Part shown: positions 39,928-52,689 of the stretch, piece after piece
Layout of the letters: every line of letters begins with the position of its first letter
Position numbering within the stretch: the first letter of the stretch is position 1
Assembly: GCF_004365965.1 (NCBI RefSeq)
Contig: NZ_SOEB01000002.1
Span: 1 to 64,000 of the forward strand
Reading direction: 5' to 3'
Origin: Rhodovulum visakhapatnamense
GTDB taxonomy: Bacteria > Pseudomonadota > Alphaproteobacteria > Rhodobacterales > Rhodobacteraceae
DNA length: 64,000 nucleotides
Position numbers and translations under genes: made by a program
Notes under the pieces: generated by a model
Told to the model about the DNA's origin: nothing
The model's input: only the letters and a program-made list of their open reading frames with translations
The model's database searches: none

Positions 39928-40118
39928 TCATTTCCGCCTTGACCCCGAAGGGTTAAAGGGCCGAACATCGCCCCATACGGGGCAGCGGCCCGACGCCATT
40001 GGCGGCCGCACCCGACCTCCGGGACAGGCCCTTCGCGCCCGTGCCGGACCCGGGCGCAGGACTTCCGTGACGCGGCGGCGCGACCCGTCCGAAGCCACCG
40101 ATGGGAGGATTTCATCAC

Positions 40119-42053
40119 ATGCGCTGCTTCACCATCCTGGGCCCCTCGCAGTCGGGCAAGTCGACGCTGCTGAAGGCCCTGGGCGAGCTTGAGGGCCGAC
40201 CGGTCACGGCCGCCTTCACCGACGCCCTGACCGTCAGCCAGTTCTCCTATCTGGGCGAATCCTGGGCCGGGTTCGACATCGCGGGCGGGCCCGACTTCCT
40301 GGGCCATGCGGGCGAGGCGCTGGCCGCCTCGGACGCCGCCATCCTGTGCGTGCCGCCCGACCCCGAGGCGGCGGTGCTGGCCGCGCCCTATCTGCGGCTG
40401 GTCGAACAGTCGGACGTGCCCTGCTTTGTCTTCATCAACAAGATGGACCAGGACGAGGCCCGCATCCGCGACATCGTCGGCGCGCTGCAGGCCTATGCCA
40501 ACCACCACATCGTCCTGCGCCAGGTGCCGATGCGTGACGCCGAGGGCCATGTGGTGGGCTCGGTCGATCTGGTCTCGGAACGCGCCTTCCAGTACCGCGA
40601 GGGTCAGCCCTCGAAGCTGATCGAGATCCCCTCGGACATCCAGGACCGCGAACAGGAGGCCCGGGCCGAACTGCTGGAACATCTGGCCGATTTCGACGAC
40701 AGCCTGATGGAACAGCTGATCGACGACCGCGAACCCGCCTCGGGCGAGGTCTACACCATCCTCGCCGAGGCCCATCGCGACAGCGCGATCATCGCCGCCT
40801 ATCTGGGCGCCGCCAGCCATGGCAACGGGCTGACCCGGCTGATGAAGGCGCTGCGCCACGAGGCGCCGGGGCGCGAGACCATCGGGCTCCGGCTCGGGAT
40901 CGAGGCGCCGCTGGCCGTGGGCGTCGCCTCCGACACCCGCAAGCATGTCGGCAAGTCGATCCTGATCCGGGCGCTCGGCAGCTCGATCCGGCATGGCGAG
41001 CCTCTGGCCGGCGGGTCCATCGGCAACCTGACCGGCATCGACGGCAAGCCGGTGGCCGAACCGCTCGACCCCGGCACGCTGGCGGTGGCGGTCAAGTCCG
41101 ACCATCTCGATCCGGGCATGGCCTATACCGCCGAGGGCAGCCAGCCGCTGCCGCGCTGGACCCGGGGCCGGCCGCCGACCTATCCGCGCCTGCTGTTGCC
41201 CGCGAACGAACGCGACGATGCCCGGCTTTCCGCGGCACTCGGGCGGATGGCGGCCGCGGATCCGGGGATGGAGACCACCCAGGACGGCGAGACCGGCCAT
41301 GCGGTGGTTCATCTGCAAGGCCCGATCCATCTGCGCCGGGTGCTGGCCAAGCTGGCCGAGGATTTCGGCATCGAGGCGGCCGACCAGCCGGTCTCGGGGA
41401 TCTACCGCGAAACCATCACCCGGCCCATCGAGACCCACTACCGCCACCGCAAGCAGTCGGGCGGCGCCGGGCAGTTCGCCGATGTGGTGCTGACCGTCCG
41501 GCCGCAGGGCCGGGGCGCGGGCTTTGCCTTCGACGAGACGATCAAGGGCGGCACCGTGCCCCGCAACTACATTCCCGCGGTCGAGGCCGGGGCGCGCGAG
41601 GCGATGGAACGGGGGCCGCTCGGCTTTCCGGTGGTCGATGTCGCGGTGACGCTGCTCGACGGCAAGACCCATGCGGTCGACAGCTCGGACCATGCGTTCC
41701 GCACCGCGGCCAAGGCGGGGGTGCGCGAGGCGCTCGAGCAGGCGGGCTCTGTGGTGCTGCAACCGATCGAACGGGTCGAGATCCATGTGCCGACGATCCA
41801 TTCGGGCTCGCTCGTGGCACTGATCAGCAGCCTCAAGGGCCAGGTGCTGGGCTTCGAGGCGCATCGGCGGGCGCGCGGCTGGGACGTGTTCCAGGCGCTG
41901 ATCCCGGCCGCCGCCAAGGAGGAACTGTTCCAGGCGCTGGGCGGGCTCAGCCACGGCACCGCCTGGTTCGAAAGCCATTTCGACCATTACGAGGAACTGC
42001 ACGGCAAGGATGCCGACCGCATCCGCGAAGCCCGCGCCGCCGAGCTGGCCTGA
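40119..42053 (+). CDS. EF-G-like translational GTPase with a reduced G domain
   Basis: A 644-residue relative of elongation factor G. The P-loop is GPSQSGKS (8-15), the G3 motif is DIAG (53-56) rather than DTPG-H, and G4 is NKMD (107-110). Only about 40 residues separate P-loop and G3, so the switch I segment with RGIT found in EF-G is absent. Domains II-V are present, with HRKQSGGAGQFADV (EF-G domain IV) and VEIHVPT in domain V. EF-G itself has about 700 residues. The start at 40119 has GGGAGG 10 bases upstream; ATG 40101 lies before that site. It stands alone between two hairpins. Confidence 0.88.
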   Translation: MRCFTILGPSQSGKSTLLKALGELEGRPVTAAFTDALTVSQFSYLGESWAGFDIAGGPDFLGHAGEALAASDAAILCVPPDPEAAVLAAPYLRLVEQSDVPCFVFINKMDQDEARIRDIVGALQAYANHHIVLRQVPMRDAEGHVVGSVDLVSERAFQYREGQPSKLIEIPSDIQDREQEARAELLEHLADFDDSLMEQLIDDREPASGEVYTILAEAHRDSAIIAAYLGAASHGNGLTRLMKALRHEAPGRETIGLRLGIEAPLAVGVASDTRKHVGKSILIRALGSSIRHGEPLAGGSIGNLTGIDGKPVAEPLDPGTLAVAVKSDHLDPGMAYTAEGSQPLPRWTRGRPPTYPRLLLPANERDDARLSAALGRMAAADPGMETTQDGETGHAVVHLQGPIHLRRVLAKLAEDFGIEAADQPVSGIYRETITRPIETHYRHRKQSGGAGQFADVVLTVRPQGRGAGFAFDETIKGGTVPRNYIPAVEAGAREAMERGPLGFPVVDVAVTLLDGKTHAVDSSDHAFRTAAKAGVREALEQAGSVVLQPIERVEIHVPTIHSGSLVALISSLKGQVLGFEAHRRARGWDVFQALIPAAAKEELFQALGGLSHGTAWFESHFDHYEELHGKDADRIREARAAELA

Positions 42054-42233: not shown

Positions 42234-42716
42234 TCAGACCGCCGCGCCCTCGGGCTGCTCGGCTTCCGCGCGCGCCTCGATGCGCTGCGCGCCGCCGCTC
42301 GAAATCTCGATCCGGCGAGGCTTCAGCGATTCCGGCACTTCGCGCACCAGATCCACATGCAGCATGCCATCGGCATGGGTGGCGCCGGTGACGCGCACAT
42401 GATCGGCCAGCGCAAAGCGGCGTTCGAAGGCGCGGGTCGCGATGCCGCGATGCAGGAAGCTGCGTTCGGTGTCCTCGGGCGCCTTGCGGGCCGCGATCAC
42501 CAGCGCACCGTCCTTGACCTCGACCGACAGCTCATCCGCAGCAAAGCCCGCCACGGCGACCGAGATCCGGTAGCCCTGATCCGAGGTCTTCTCGATGTTA
42601 TAGGGCGGGTAGGTCGGCTGGGCCATGTCGCTGGCCATCACCCGGTCCATCAGGTCGGCCACCCGGTCGAAGCCGACGGTGGCACGGTAAAGCGGGGCAA
42701 AATCGTAGTGACGCAT
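42234..42716 (-). CDS. Small heat shock protein Hsp20 (IbpA type)
   Basis: A 160-residue alpha-crystallin chaperone that holds unfolded proteins for DnaK/ClpB. The N-terminus MRHYDFAPLYRATVGFDRV is the IbpA signature of proteobacteria. The crystallin domain spans about 38-128 (YRISVAVAGFAADELSVEV, GALVIAARK, FERRFALADHVRV) and a tail with PRRIEI carries the I-x-I-like motif. The start at 42716 is set by GGAGGA 7 bases upstream. Its leader forms a ROSE-type RNA thermometer with a heat-shock promoter before it. Confidence 0.94.
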   Translation of the reverse strand: MRHYDFAPLYRATVGFDRVADLMDRVMASDMAQPTYPPYNIEKTSDQGYRISVAVAGFAADELSVEVKDGALVIAARKAPEDTERSFLHRGIATRAFERRFALADHVRVTGATHADGMLHVDLVREVPESLKPRRIEISSGGAQRIEARAEAEQPEGAAV

Positions 42717-42812
42717 TGTATCATCCTCCATTGAGCGATGTCGTCTATGTGTTGGCCCTCCCGATGCGGGACGGGCCGGTCTCGCGGACCCCGAAGGCGC
42801 CCGCAAAGGACA
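42717..42812 (-). promoter_or_regulatory. ROSE-type RNA thermometer in the hsp20 leader
   Basis: Read on the minus strand, the leader has three hairpins: 42778-42790 (GGTC/GACC), 42754-42777 (GGCCC/GGGCC with an inner CCCG/CGGG) and, next to the start codon, 42722-42740. In the last, CATC-G-CTC pairs with GAGGATG over an AATG loop, leaving one bulged G opposite the Shine-Dalgarno GGAGGA. The UCGCU strand matches the conserved U(U/C)GCU of ROSE elements, which melt on heating and free the ribosome site. Such elements control hsp20 genes in other alphaproteobacteria. Confidence 0.75.
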
Positions 42813-42818
42813 AGCTGG

Positions 42819-42841
42819 GAATGGACAAAATCGGTTTCAAG
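42819..42841 (-). promoter_or_regulatory. Candidate RpoH heat-shock promoter of hsp20
   Basis: On the minus strand CTTGAA (complement of 42836-42841) and CCATTC (complement of 42819-42824) are 11 bases apart. The -35 is the exact sigma-32 hexamer and the -10 resembles CCCCAT-x-T. Transcription would start near 42812, giving a leader of about 95 bases. Confidence 0.5.
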
Positions 42842-47854: not shown

Positions 47855-49906
47855 TCAGCGCCGCCCTTCGCGCAGCCAGGCCCCGACGCTCAGCAGGGCA
47901 GCCAGAAGCAGGAACGCCCAGGCGGGCGCCAGCGGCATGACGGTGACATCGCTGGTCAGATAGGCCCCGCGCGGAGTGATGCCCAACCAGCCCCGGCCAT
48001 GGGCGCGGCGGCCCTCGCGCACCGTGCGCAGATCGGGCATGCCCGCATGAAGCGGCAGGATCCCGCCGCGCGTGGCCGCAACCGGCGCATCCAGCCGGGC
48101 ACCGCTGGCAATGGTCTCCTCGAACTCGCGCGGCGCCGCCGGTCCCAGCGCAATCACCGTGTCGAGCGTGCCGTCGGTCAGGCGGTAAAGCCCCATCTCG
48201 GGACCTTCATAGGTCGCGGTGAAACGGCCGGGCGCGGTCTCGGTCAGTTCAAGCCGGTCGGTGCCGCCATCGGGGCGCGCGATCTCGACGCTCCGCGGCT
48301 CCTCGGACAGCGACCGGCGGGTGACGGTCATCACCTGCCCCTCGGCCGTGGCGCTCAGCGCCTCTTCCTCCAGCTCGGGCTCCTTCATCATCCAGTGCGC
48401 GAGCCGCCGCAGCAGTTCAAGCTGCGGCCCGCCGCCCTCGAAGCCGCGGGTCCAGAGCCAGGCATGGTCCGACCCCAGCAGCGCGACCCGACCCTCGCCG
48501 ACGCGGTCAAGCACCAGCAGCGGGCGGTCGTCGATCCCGCTCATCACCACCTCGCCCCGCTTCGGCACCAGGTCGACCAGCCGGAACCAGCGGCCCCAGG
48601 CACCGCCCGCCTCGGCCTTCAGCCCCTCGGTCACCGGATGGCGCTGGCCGAGATCGGTGATCTCGGGACGATAGCCCTGCTCGATCACCCGGGCGCTGGG
48701 CTCGGCAGGCAGGATGTCGGCCAGGGGCGAGCGGTAGATTGACTCGGCCCCGGCGAAATCGGGTCCGGCCGCGATCAGCAGCGCGCCGCCCTTCTCGACA
48801 TAGTTGCGCACATTGTCGAAATAGACCGCCGGAAGAATGCCGCGCCGCTTGTAGCGGTCGAAGATGATCAGGTCGAACTCGTCGATCTTGTCGAGGAACA
48901 GCTCGCGCGTCGGAAAGGCGATCAGCGAAAGTTCCGACACCGGCACGCCGTCATGCTTGTCCGGCGGGCGCAGGATGGTGAAATGCACCAGATCGACGGA
49001 ACTGTCCGATTTCAGCAGGTTCCGCCAGGTCCGTTCGCCGGGATGCGGCTCGCCCGACACCAGCAGCACCCGCAGCCGGTCGCGCACGCCGTTGATCTGT
49101 ACCACGGCCGCGTTGTTGCGGTCGGTCAGCTCGCCCGGCTGCTCGGCCACCGAGAACTGGATCACGTTGCGCCCGGCATGGTCCAGCACCACCGGCACGT
49201 CGAGATCCTCGCCGATCGGCACGCGATAGCTTTGCGGCTCGCCGCCATCGACCGAGACGGAGACTGAGGTCGTGCCGCCCATGGTCTCGGGCACCGCGCC
49301 CTGATCCTCGATCTTCAGGGTCAGCGTGACCTCCTCGCCGAGGATCGCGAAGGCGGGCGCGTTCTCGACCAAGAGCCGCCGGTCCCAGTCGTCCTCCTGC
49401 CCGGTCAGGAGCGCATGAAGCGGCGCGGGCAGCGACGGCGCGCGGTCCAGATCGTGCAGCTGCCCGTCGGTCAGCAGGATCGCGCCCGCAAGCCGCGACC
49501 GCGGCACCTCGGCCAGCGCCTCGGACAGGGCCGTCATCAGCATCGTGCCCTCGTCGCCCGCGCCGTCCCCGAAACGCACGACCCGCAGCTCGGTATTGTC
49601 GAGCGCAGCCACCTCGGCGCGGACCCTCTCGACCGCACGGGCGGTCTGGTCGGGCCGGTCCGCCAGCCGCTGCGAGGCGCTTTCGTCAACCACCAGAACC
49701 ACGATGTCGGACAGCGGTGTCCGCTCTTCGGTCTGCAATGACGGGTTGGCCAGCGCGGCCAGGATCGCCACGGCGGCAAGCCCGCGCAGCCACCAGCCCG
49801 CAAGCCCGCGCCAGAGCGCGAAGCCCACCATCAGAGCGGCCAGCGCCGCCGCCGCCCAAAGCAAGAGCAGCGGCACCAGCGGGTCGAAGATCACCTCGCC
49901 GGTCAT
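47855..49906 (-). CDS. Membrane protein with VWA-like and glutamine-amidotransferase-like regions
   Basis: A 683-residue inner-membrane protein, last gene of the MoxR operon. Two N-terminal helices (PLVPLLLLWAAAALAALMV and LAAVAILAALANPSL) lead to a VWA-like region beginning IVVLVVDESASQRLADR. An Ig-like middle part and a class I glutamine-amidotransferase-like region (VRNYVEKGGALLIAAGPDF) follow, then a C-terminal helix (AWAFLLLAALLSVGAWL). Catalytic Cys is not evident. Its start overlaps the stop of the DUF4159 gene by four bases. Confidence 0.82.
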   Translation of the reverse strand: MTGEVIFDPLVPLLLLWAAAALAALMVGFALWRGLAGWWLRGLAAVAILAALANPSLQTEERTPLSDIVVLVVDESASQRLADRPDQTARAVERVRAEVAALDNTELRVVRFGDGAGDEGTMLMTALSEALAEVPRSRLAGAILLTDGQLHDLDRAPSLPAPLHALLTGQEDDWDRRLLVENAPAFAILGEEVTLTLKIEDQGAVPETMGGTTSVSVSVDGGEPQSYRVPIGEDLDVPVVLDHAGRNVIQFSVAEQPGELTDRNNAAVVQINGVRDRLRVLLVSGEPHPGERTWRNLLKSDSSVDLVHFTILRPPDKHDGVPVSELSLIAFPTRELFLDKIDEFDLIIFDRYKRRGILPAVYFDNVRNYVEKGGALLIAAGPDFAGAESIYRSPLADILPAEPSARVIEQGYRPEITDLGQRHPVTEGLKAEAGGAWGRWFRLVDLVPKRGEVVMSGIDDRPLLVLDRVGEGRVALLGSDHAWLWTRGFEGGGPQLELLRRLAHWMMKEPELEEEALSATAEGQVMTVTRRSLSEEPRSVEIARPDGGTDRLELTETAPGRFTATYEGPEMGLYRLTDGTLDTVIALGPAAPREFEETIASGARLDAPVAATRGGILPLHAGMPDLRTVREGRRAHGRGWLGITPRGAYLTSDVTVMPLAPAWAFLLLAALLSVGAWLREGRR

Positions 49907-52689
49907 TGGCCGAGCCTGTCGAGCAGCGCGGGCACATGGACCTGGTCGGATTTGTAGTTGCCGGTCAGCACATGCATGATGAGGTTGACCCCGAAGCGGA
50001 AGGCGATCTCGCGCTGGCGTTCGCCCGCATAGCCGCGCCCGACCGGGAACATCGCTGCGCCCTGCCCGTCGATGGCCCAGGCCGAGGCCCAGTCATTGCC
50101 GCCGATCACCACCGGCGTCACCCCGTCATTGAGATCGCGGAAGGGCATGCCCTCGGCCTGTTCGGCATCGGGGGGGGGTGCTGCCTCGACCCACACGTCG
50201 CGCCCGGCATTGCGGCCGGGAAAGTCCTGCAACAGGTAGAAGGTGCGGGTCAGCACATGATCGGAAGGGATCGGTTCCAGCGGCGGAATGTCGAGCGGGC
50301 GCGCCAGTTGCTGCAGCCGCCGCCCCTCGGGCGAGCCGCCGCCATAGGCCGCGACATCGGCATCGCGCGTGTCGAAGAGAATCATGCCCCCGGTCCGCAG
50401 ATAGCGGTTGAGCCGGGCATAGGCCGCGGGCGAGGGCATCGGCTGCCCGGCGGTCACCGGCCAGTAGAGGAAGGGAAAGAACGACAGCTCATCGGTCTCG
50501 AGATTGACGGCGATGGGCTCGGCGGGCTCGATCGAGGTGCGCTGGGTCAGCTTTTCCGACAGGCCCCGAAGCCCCGCATCGGCGATCTGGTCGACCCGGG
50601 CATCACCGGTCAGGACATGGGCCAGGACAACCTCGCTGGTGGCGCGCAGTGCCAGCGCGTCGTCGGCGGGCGTACCGGGCTCCTGCGCCCAAGCCCCCTG
50701 CGGCACCAGCATCACAAGCCCCAGCGCCAGAACCGCCGCGCGGCCCGCGCCGCGCCCGCCCCGAAGCCGCCCCGACAGCCAGAGCGAGGCCAGGATGTCG
50801 GCCGCGAAGATCGCCAGCGCCGCGGCCAGAACCCAGCCCTTCAGCACCGTCTCGCGCGCGACAGTCAGCCCCTCGACCGCGATCCGGGCGGGCCAGGCGG
50901 CGGGGCTCAGCACCGTGTCCGTCCCGATCACGTTCAGCGCCAGCCGCCGGTCCTCGCCCGCATAAAGCCCGGGCGGCAGATCCGGCCCCGGCACCGCCCT
51001 GGCCAGCATTTCGCCCGGCACCCCGGGCAACTTGCCGGCCTCGGCCAGCTCGCCGAAGGCGTCGATCACCGCTTGCGGCACCCAGGTCGTCCCCGCCAGT
51101 TCGGCCGCATCGGGCCGTGCAGGCCGGGTCGAGACCGCCAGCCGTTCCAGCATCTGCACGAACAGACCCGACAGCGGCAGGCTCGACCATTCGGCATTGG
51201 CGGTGACATGGAACAGCACCACCTGCCCCTGCCCCATCTTCTTGCGCGTCACCAGGGGCGTGCCGTCGCTGAGCGCCGCTATGGACCGGTCGGCCAGCGA
51301 CGGGTCGGGCTGGGCCATCACCTGGGCATTGACCCGCACATCGTCGGGCACCGCGAGCCCGAAGAAGGGCGAGCCCTCGCCGAAGGGCCGCAGCGTCTTG
51401 GGCTCGCCCCAGCTCATCGCCCCGCCGACCGTGCGCCCGCCCGCGCGCAGCCGCACCGGCATCAGCGGATCTTCCTCGGCACGGCTGACATCCGAGGCGG
51501 CAAGCCGCGGCCCGGCAAAGCGCAGCAAAAGCCCGCCCTTCTCGACCCAGCCTTGAAGAGTCTCGGATTCGGCCGGTGAGAGGGTCGCCACATCGGCCAG
51601 CACGATCACATCGGGATTGGCCAGCACCACATCCGACAGGGTGCCCTCGATCAGATCGGCGGTGGGGTCCAGCGCCTTGTGCAGATAGTGCAGCGGCGAC
51701 AGCAGTTGCAGCCCCTCGCGGTTCTCGTTGCCCGCGATCAGCGCCACCTCGCGCCGCTTGAGGCTGTCATCGGTCAGGCTGACCGCCCCGGCCGAGCGGA
51801 CGCCCTCGATGGCAAAGCGGCTGATCCGGTTGCGCAGCTCGGGCGGCAACACCAGATCGGTCGCTGCCTCGGTCTCGCCGGGGGCGAAGGCCACCGGCAC
51901 CCGGGCCAGCACCCGCTCGACCCCGGCGGGATCGCGGCCGGTGGCGGCCAGCGTGGCTTCGGTCGCGGGGCCGGGCCGGGCACGCAGCGCGGTCAGCCCG
52001 ATGGCCCCGTCCCGAAACGCGGCCGGACGCATCGCCACAAGCGGCCGGGGGCTTTCGAAGACGCTGACCTGCCCGTGCCGTTCAAGCGCCGACAAAAGAG
52101 CCGTACGCCCCGGCCAGTCGAGCCCCCCCGACAGCCAGAACGTATCGAACCGTCCCTCAAGCGTCCGGGTCCAGTCAGCCAGCGCATCCGCATCGGGCAG
52201 CCAGGCCGCCGGGCGGAAGCCCGCGAGCCGGGCCGACCAGACCTCGGCCGCCTGGAAGGGCAGCCCGTCGCCGGGCAGGTCGGTCGCCTGCACCACCGCG
52301 ACCGGCCGGCCGTCGCGGGCGGCCTCGTCCAGCATTGCCTCAATCCGGTCGATGCGGCGCGGCCAGTCCCGGGCATCGGCCCAGCTGCCGTCGATCATCA
52401 CCAGAAGCGGCCCGCGCCCCGGCGTCCGGTCCTGCGGGTTCAGCACCGGCCCGGCAAAGCCCAGGATCAGCGCGGCCACCGCCAGCATCCGAAGCAGCAG
52501 AAGCCACCAGGGCGTGCGGTCGGTCTGGGTCTCGTCATCGGCCAGCCCCAGCAGCAGCGCCACCCCCGGAAACCGCCGCCGGATCGGCGCGGGCGGCACC
52601 GCCCGCAGCAACAGCCACAGCGCGGGCAGCAGCACCAGCCCCCAAAGCAGCAGCGGCGCGGTGAAACCGAAGGCCCCGACGGTCCACAT
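49903..52689 (-). CDS. BatA/DUF4159 domain membrane protein
   Basis: A 928-residue protein. N-terminal helices with a BatA-like segment (APLLLWGLVLLPALWLLL, RRRFPGVALLLGL) precede a long VWA/GATase-like periplasmic part, a helix near residue 640 and a C-terminal DUF4159 domain (ELSFFPFLYWPVTAG, YLRTGGMILFDTRD). The function of DUF4159 is unknown; such genes accompany MoxR and DUF58. ATG 52689 was chosen over 52722 because the longer form enters the DUF58 coding end. The start shares a base with the DUF58 stop. Confidence 0.87.
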   Translation of the reverse strand: MWTVGAFGFTAPLLLWGLVLLPALWLLLRAVPPAPIRRRFPGVALLLGLADDETQTDRTPWWLLLLRMLAVAALILGFAGPVLNPQDRTPGRGPLLVMIDGSWADARDWPRRIDRIEAMLDEAARDGRPVAVVQATDLPGDGLPFQAAEVWSARLAGFRPAAWLPDADALADWTRTLEGRFDTFWLSGGLDWPGRTALLSALERHGQVSVFESPRPLVAMRPAAFRDGAIGLTALRARPGPATEATLAATGRDPAGVERVLARVPVAFAPGETEAATDLVLPPELRNRISRFAIEGVRSAGAVSLTDDSLKRREVALIAGNENREGLQLLSPLHYLHKALDPTADLIEGTLSDVVLANPDVIVLADVATLSPAESETLQGWVEKGGLLLRFAGPRLAASDVSRAEEDPLMPVRLRAGGRTVGGAMSWGEPKTLRPFGEGSPFFGLAVPDDVRVNAQVMAQPDPSLADRSIAALSDGTPLVTRKKMGQGQVVLFHVTANAEWSSLPLSGLFVQMLERLAVSTRPARPDAAELAGTTWVPQAVIDAFGELAEAGKLPGVPGEMLARAVPGPDLPPGLYAGEDRRLALNVIGTDTVLSPAAWPARIAVEGLTVARETVLKGWVLAAALAIFAADILASLWLSGRLRGGRGAGRAAVLALGLVMLVPQGAWAQEPGTPADDALALRATSEVVLAHVLTGDARVDQIADAGLRGLSEKLTQRTSIEPAEPIAVNLETDELSFFPFLYWPVTAGQPMPSPAAYARLNRYLRTGGMILFDTRDADVAAYGGGSPEGRRLQQLARPLDIPPLEPIPSDHVLTRTFYLLQDFPGRNAGRDVWVEAAPPPDAEQAEGMPFRDLNDGVTPVVIGGNDWASAWAIDGQGAAMFPVGRGYAGERQREIAFRFGVNLIMHVLTGNYKSDQVHVPALLDRLGQ

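Follow-up and report, generated by a model that had tools for sequence, protein, structure and literature searches.

We are highly confident that the leader of an hsp20 gene in Rhodovulum visakhapatnamense carries a ROSE-type RNA thermometer, and that the gene, of the ibpA/hsp20 kind, is transcribed from a probable RpoH promoter. By analogy with described elements, the leader very probably hides the ribosome site of the gene until the cell warms. The DNA analysed, here called the window, is a stretch of 64,000 nucleotides from contig NZ_SOEB01000002.1 (assembly GCF_004365965.1). ROSE identity, the core of the original prediction, finds support in an Rfam match that is full-length though under the threshold, in covariation over 82-91 leaders and in a strictly kept hairpin of UYGCU with the Shine-Dalgarno sequence (SD) and its bulged G.

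The window leader is an expected, well-preserved instance of an already known kind of ROSE element. The kind is not new in this group, since a Roseobacter, Nautella sp. R11, has already been predicted to have ROSE-like elements ahead of its ibpA and hspD genes (PMC3230580). This is a related bacterium, and the window genome too has such leaders before two small heat-shock protein (sHsp) genes; the available part of that paper gives the prediction in one sentence, with neither sequence nor structure.

The features are listed in window coordinates.

42836..42841, minus strand: -35 box CTTGAA of a probable RpoH (heat-shock sigma) promoter, from plain alignment of upstream DNA
42813..42819, minus strand: -10 box CCCAGCT, 16 bases after CTTGAA, from aligned conserved columns
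42717..42806, minus strand: predicted 5' leader of the hsp20 mRNA, about 90 nt, its start placed from the -10 box
42784..42804, minus strand: hairpin I, with unpaired G 42798 below CC/GG pairs, from the Rfam ROSE alignment and covarying pairs
42754..42777, minus strand: hairpin II, with bulged G 42772, from covarying pairs
42722..42740, minus strand: hairpin III, the putative thermosensing hairpin, CAUC-G-CUC / GAG-GAUG with loop AAUG and bulged G 42736
42724..42729, minus strand: SD GGAGGA, from sequence and fold
42710..42745, minus strand: possible basal stem of GACG (42745-42742) and CGUC (42713-42710, codons 2-3), from the predicted fold only
42234..42716, minus strand: gene for the hsp20 / IbpA-type small heat-shock protein, ATG 42716-42714, 160 aa
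42903-43811, minus strand: trypsin-like protease gene, directly upstream of hsp20
40101-42053, strand opposite to hsp20: EF-G-like gene

The gene behind the leader is a small heat-shock gene, as ROSE elements have: its product matches HSP20 in Pfam (1.3e-18). The IbpA and IbpB models of NCBIfam match as well, both under their own cut-offs, and identity to Escherichia coli IbpA is 47%. The trypsin-like protease gene lies close to hsp20 in 80 of the 91 orthologue loci.

ROSE elements are defined by a U(U/C)GCU in the 3'-proximal hairpin that pairs with the SD (PMC3669281), by a bulged G opposite the SD (PMC9450479) and by two to four hairpins (PMC4166951). The window leader has three, with covariation. 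UCGCU (42738-42734, minus strand) pairs with the SD; GGAGGA belongs to the 3' strand of hairpin III and is paired except for its first G, which lies in the loop. Both the leader with three successive hairpins and the last hairpin, which had been described as hiding GGAGGA with UCGCU and one bulged G, are thus present on the minus strand in sequence and fold. The leader is about 90 nt long, and the remainder of the span first quoted for it is promoter. The possible basal stem GACG/CGUC would, in the predicted fold, enclose the hsp20 start codon.

In a GC-rich genome, hairpins ahead of a gene might arise by chance. For the 90-nt leader the computed folding energy is -41.8 kcal/mol, where shuffles average -30.6 (z -3.3), and none of 200 shuffles was as stable. 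A longer stretch of 113 nt is less extreme (z -2.5), with 4 of 200 shuffles equally stable. Burial of the SD was rejected as a test against chance: of 300 controls in which the upstream part had been shuffled, 279 concealed the SD as well as the real leader or better.

The 94 orthologue loci gave 91 distinct leaders (three were duplicates), of which 90 (without L046) served for the promoter reading; omission of L109-L111, which come from outside the family, left 87. Alignment A1 holds 82 leaders aligned by sequence alone, leaving out L043, L080, L081, L098 and L101 for their long inserts. A covariance model, R1, was built from these 82 leaders and excludes the ATG and the gene. Alignment A2 holds all 91 leaders in an R1-fitted alignment. 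Alignment A3 holds 59 matched loci of the 61 wider loci given (L132 and L145 were unmatched), best-scoring loci only; its input took in 23 of 29 new loci from the class search, the other six being repeats. A2 and A3 are biased towards the R1 structure, and A1 is unbiased.

Homologous leaders, whose comparison had been proposed, show covariation in A1. Over 23 named pairs, 157 cells had changed on both sides, against 41.0 in shuffled and 19-51 in slid controls. Paired cells made up 92.8%, against 85.2% shuffled and at most 66.4% slid; pairs with a both-side change numbered 14 against 9.1 shuffled; and the covariation score was 0.300 against 0.157 shuffled and at most 0.111 slid. The shuffle control takes no account of relatedness. 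The slid control does, though it gives an advantage to a structure that was derived from one of the sequences. None of 500 shuffles attained the paired cells, the both-side-changed cells or the covariation score of A1, and one of 500 attained each of its other two measures. In the alignments that lean towards R1, both-side-changed cells came to 220 against 56 in the control (A2, 91 leaders) and 230 against 59 (A3, 59 wider loci). Covariation already contradicts chance hairpins, and the leader is present across the family and, where checked, before hsp20. We give that explanation next to no weight.

In hairpin III, cells are paired in 99.1% (A1) and 98.7% (A2) of cases, and its letters are so conserved that in A1 both-side changes touch the outermost and innermost pairs only. 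The UCGCU pairing has not been lost in relatives: UYGCU stands opposite the SD in 91 of 91 leaders (A2). The bulged G is found in all 91 family rows and all 59 wider rows, and in 88 of 91 isolated folds it forms a single bulge, as in ROSE elements.

An Rfam scan of the window at gathering thresholds gave no match. In a relaxed scan, RF00435 (ROSE) aligned to 42804-42710 over all 94 model positions with 32.6 bits (E=0.0026 for 351 bases and all families), short of its gathering cut-off of 45 bits. This is the sole RF00435 match reported in the window genome. The window was absent among RF01832 (ROSE_2) matches at E<=10. RF00435 matched 27 of 248 family genomes and 45 of 289 class genomes at E<=0.1, with one above the cut-off in each set. 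The cut-off says little here because it is reached in just one of the 248 family genomes. The expected covariance-model hit does exist, weak with Rfam and strong with R1.

R1 matched at least 269 of 295 family genomes, all from different genera, at E<=0.01; the model was trained on the family, so this tally is no independent test. At the same limit it matched at least 75 of 289 class genomes, four of the 75 belonging to the family. The genome-wide R1 search loses matches at its first look. Its tallies are lower bounds, since the leader of a second sHsp gene in the window genome was missed genome-wide and found by direct search. An hsp20 start lay at most 60 nt behind the R1 match in 57 of the 59 A3 loci, these being the best-scoring loci of the wider searches. 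Given how rarely the RF00435 cut-off is reached in family genomes and how widely R1 matches, tallies for which the genome sets and E limits differ, Rfam-based annotation would overlook most RNA thermometers of the Rhodobacteraceae.

For promoter conservation, the 60 bases preceding each of 90 leaders were put into a plain alignment; L046 was left out because it lies at a contig edge. The -35 columns have TTGA in 90 of 90 and the leading C in 87. The -10 consensus is CCCAnAT, with counts out of 90 of C 89, C 84, C 83, A 88, any base, A 62 (C in 22) and T 88. The original prediction had placed the -10 box at CCATTC (42824-42819), 11 bases after CTTGAA. Of this pair CTTGAA is conserved, but CCATTC is not kept by relatives, and the columns of CCA before the CCCAGCT box are less than 60% conserved. 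The candidate was rejected in favour of CCCAGCT, 16 bases after CTTGAA. With the -10 box so moved, the proposed RpoH promoter is supported, its boxes being kept in the 90 aligned upstreams.

The spacer from CTTGAA was 16 bases in 78 of 90 upstreams, 15 in eight, 14 in three and 17 in one, as counted by a script that demanded TTGA and picked the best box and is therefore biased towards the pattern. Because these counts lean that way, the promoter claim is based on the plain alignment and on a shuffle control, in which a script score of at least 7 was reached by 90 of 91 real upstreams and by 8 of 1820 shuffled ones. The promoter was also considered as a rare pattern, and this argument was rejected: the bare pattern had 13 genome matches against 12 for the reversed pattern, not rarer than chance. 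Since it is as frequent as its reversed control, what carries the claim is that the boxes are conserved at one fixed position.

RpoH1 promoters of Sinorhizobium meliloti read CTTGAA-N15-16-CCTATAT (PMC4843759), and RpoH promoters of R. sphaeroides keep TTG at -35 (PMC3441632). CTTGAA-N16-CCCAGCT is like the former, as taken for an alphaproteobacterial RpoH promoter (consensus: PMC4843759). Judged by its boxes, then, the promoter of hsp20 is probably of RpoH type. It would start transcription near 42806, about two bases ahead of hairpin I. A start inside the leader would remove hairpins; the conserved promoter implies one just before hairpin I.

Opening of the SD was computed at 30 and 42 C. 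When 16 nt of the gene were included, GGAGGA was open with a probability of 2.0% at 30 C, rising to 3.8% at 42 C; with 6 nt included, the probability of an open GAGGA went from 0.03% to 0.25%. The 42/30 C opening ratio had a median of 6.6 (5th-95th percentile 1.2-16.7) over 90 of the 91 leaders, the other being without a readable SD. In the E. coli ibpA leader, used as positive control in the same calculation, the open SD fell from 6.4% to 5.5%. The opening calculation cannot decide on a thermometer, because it depends on cut points and letters and fails on the E. coli ibpA control. Thermal folding over 20-60 C was likewise set aside as proof, since it depends on cut points and the control is unresponsive.

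The little opening that nearest-neighbour folding predicts at 42 C would also suit a leader that merely stabilises the mRNA or is a constitutively folded 5' UTR, with heat control by RpoH alone and a non-regulatory hairpin III. Against such a leader stand the UYGCU/SD pairing with bulged G, strict in 91 of 91 leaders, the covariation, and the presence of the same element in the established E. coli thermometer, where the calculation also fails. We regard this explanation as improbable. For the thermometer, we infer function from kinship.

The thermometer would work as follows, on a start site, a sigma factor and a melting step that we infer. Heat would act on the RpoH promoter to increase hsp20 transcription. 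Hairpins I and II of the mRNA would fold independently, and hairpin III would pair AUCGCUC with the SD strand GAGGAU around the bulged G, so that few ribosomes load when the cell is cool. Warming would loosen hairpin III and expose the SD, as known ROSE elements suggest.

Among known systems, RF00435 ROSE (the rhizobial hspA type) shares with the window the position in a small heat-shock gene leader, the full-length alignment, the unpaired G and CC/GG pairs of hairpin I and the UYGCU opposite the SD with a bulged G. In contrast to the Rfam consensus, the window has a shorter hairpin II, with a bulged G, and a short last hairpin without a stem through the start codon. In fourU thermometers UUUU pairs with the SD, a pairing absent from the window leader. 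Both fourU and ROSE-G (PMC12857270) thermometers resemble the window leader in that the SD is concealed in a weak hairpin. ROSE-G has CUGCU with two opposed bulged Gs and lies before ABC transporter genes (PMC12857270), whereas the window leader has UCGCU and one bulge. The short ROSE-like element of Pseudomonas ibpA is alike in its short SD hairpin with UYGCU and the start codon outside, and unlike in having two hairpins against three in the window (PMC3669281).

The leader of E. coli ibpA is an established thermometer (PMC9450479), which Rfam calls ROSE_2 (RF01832) with 100.4 bits. Like the window leader it has three hairpins and UCGCU opposite AGGAG; unlike the window leader it has, as folded, a longer lower stem on hairpin I. 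R1 matches it over all three hairpins, including the Gs of both hairpins I and II, at 27.2 bits (E=1.2e-5 in 3 kb). Its hairpin II, ACCU-G-UCCA/UGGAAGGU, has the same bulged G as hairpin II of the window.

These Gs are widely conserved. All 91 family rows and all 59 wider rows have a G where hairpin I bulges (42798). At the bulge position of hairpin II (42772), G stands in 78 of 82 rows in A1, 83 of 91 in A2 and 50 of 59 in A3. The pair just above the hairpin II bulge is GC, UA, AU, CG or GU in the wider set, and both of its sides have changed in 27 of 52 lettered cells (A3). In isolated folds, 66 of the 83 family rows with a hairpin II G show it as a single bulge and 10 show it paired; of the 50 wider rows that have it, 20 form the single bulge, 20 have the G paired, and in 10 it is unpaired in another way. 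The literature searched, with most subscription papers outside reach, gave no description of the conserved Gs of hairpins I and II. The role of upstream hairpins in ROSE-like elements has been called incompletely understood (PMC3669281). A hidden second SD in hairpin II (GGGAGGG) was considered and dropped, the strand being GGUGGG or GGCGGG in many wider relatives.

The conserved Gs might instead mark the leader as a platform for IbpA self-repression, besides or instead of a thermometer: IbpA would bind its own leader, with the Gs of hairpins I and II as binding site, and leave once drawn onto aggregates. E. coli IbpA is a translational repressor of its own gene; it binds the leader, acts through the 5' UTR and requires R93; R93 and Y34 are kept in alphaproteobacteria, where the authors suggest the same control (PMC10474464). 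All 91 orthologues have R93 (E. coli IbpA numbering), and 90 of them have Y34. The window protein has both the R and the aromatic residue at 34, a Y. Together with the covarying flanking pairs, these observations suggest, as yet unproven, that the Gs of hairpins I and II serve IbpA self-repression.

Several observations weigh against this role. The Gs may serve folding only, and fewer than half of the isolated folds from the wider set show the hairpin II G as a clean single bulge. R1 itself, A2 and A3 lean towards the bulge, which in the sequence-only A1 is a G in most rows. In four leaders from genomes that we take to be Vibrio-like (L218-L221), the R1 match is without hairpin II. The literature found, as far as its text was available, does not put the IbpA site in hairpin I or II, and in Pseudomonas the SD hairpin alone suffices for thermoregulation (PMC3669281). 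We consider a self-repression platform unlikely.

Combined with the thermometer, the conserved Gs, the self-repression of E. coli IbpA through R93 and the conservation of R93 and Y34 lead to a tentative further reading, which we would sooner doubt than accept: ROSE leaders may be double sensors, in which hairpin III senses temperature and the Gs of hairpins I and II contact IbpA. The leader would then consist of three similar hairpins whose 5' strands each carry a single unpaired G. If this is true, aggregates as well as heat would release ibpA translation, and the ROSE and ROSE_2 models of Rfam would form one family. The Gs of hairpins I and II offer two point targets for testing IbpA binding.

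The ROSE-type thermometer of the window has a likely counterpart in its own genome. The second sHsp gene (G000:C4, HSP20) has a ROSE-like leader at L224:205-294, about 49904-49993, which equals L025:1382-1471. It was reported neither by Rfam nor by the genome-wide R1 search, and scored 36.2 bits (E=2.7e-6) in a direct search of 16 loci. Its best structure in a plain fold at 30 C is without the ROSE hairpin. Among the 16 second-paralogue loci of the genus, R1 matched upstream of the gene in eight at E<=0.1. A third, distant sHsp-like gene (L225, G000:C17:82700-83900) has an RpoH-like promoter pattern upstream, and the locus search found no R1 leader there. When a third sHsp of the genus was examined at five loci for a link between R93 and the leader, three loci gave a protein match, with a doubtful alignment around R93.

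Outside the class, R1 matched six genomes at E<=0.1. Four of these matches precede an hsp20, though at a distance of some 160 to 200 nt; at L222 and L223 no hsp20 was found within the 1.6-1.7 kb examined. By eye, the loci L218:1082-1310, L219:341-588, L220:372-607 and L221:359-606, of another family, have two UYGCU/SD hairpins upstream of hsp20, one at the gene's own SD and the other about 160 to 200 nt upstream with no hsp20 start behind it. The Rfam ROSE models report none of the four leaders at E<=1.

Within the orthologue set, two leaders (L098:1391-1495 and L101:1391-1495) carry, in the stretch separating hairpin II from hairpin III, an extra AACGCUUAUCAAAG or a near copy of it that looks like a partly duplicated thermosensing strand. 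The leaders of L043, L080 and L081 have an insert with GACUGAAAACGCU immediately ahead of the thermosensing hairpin.
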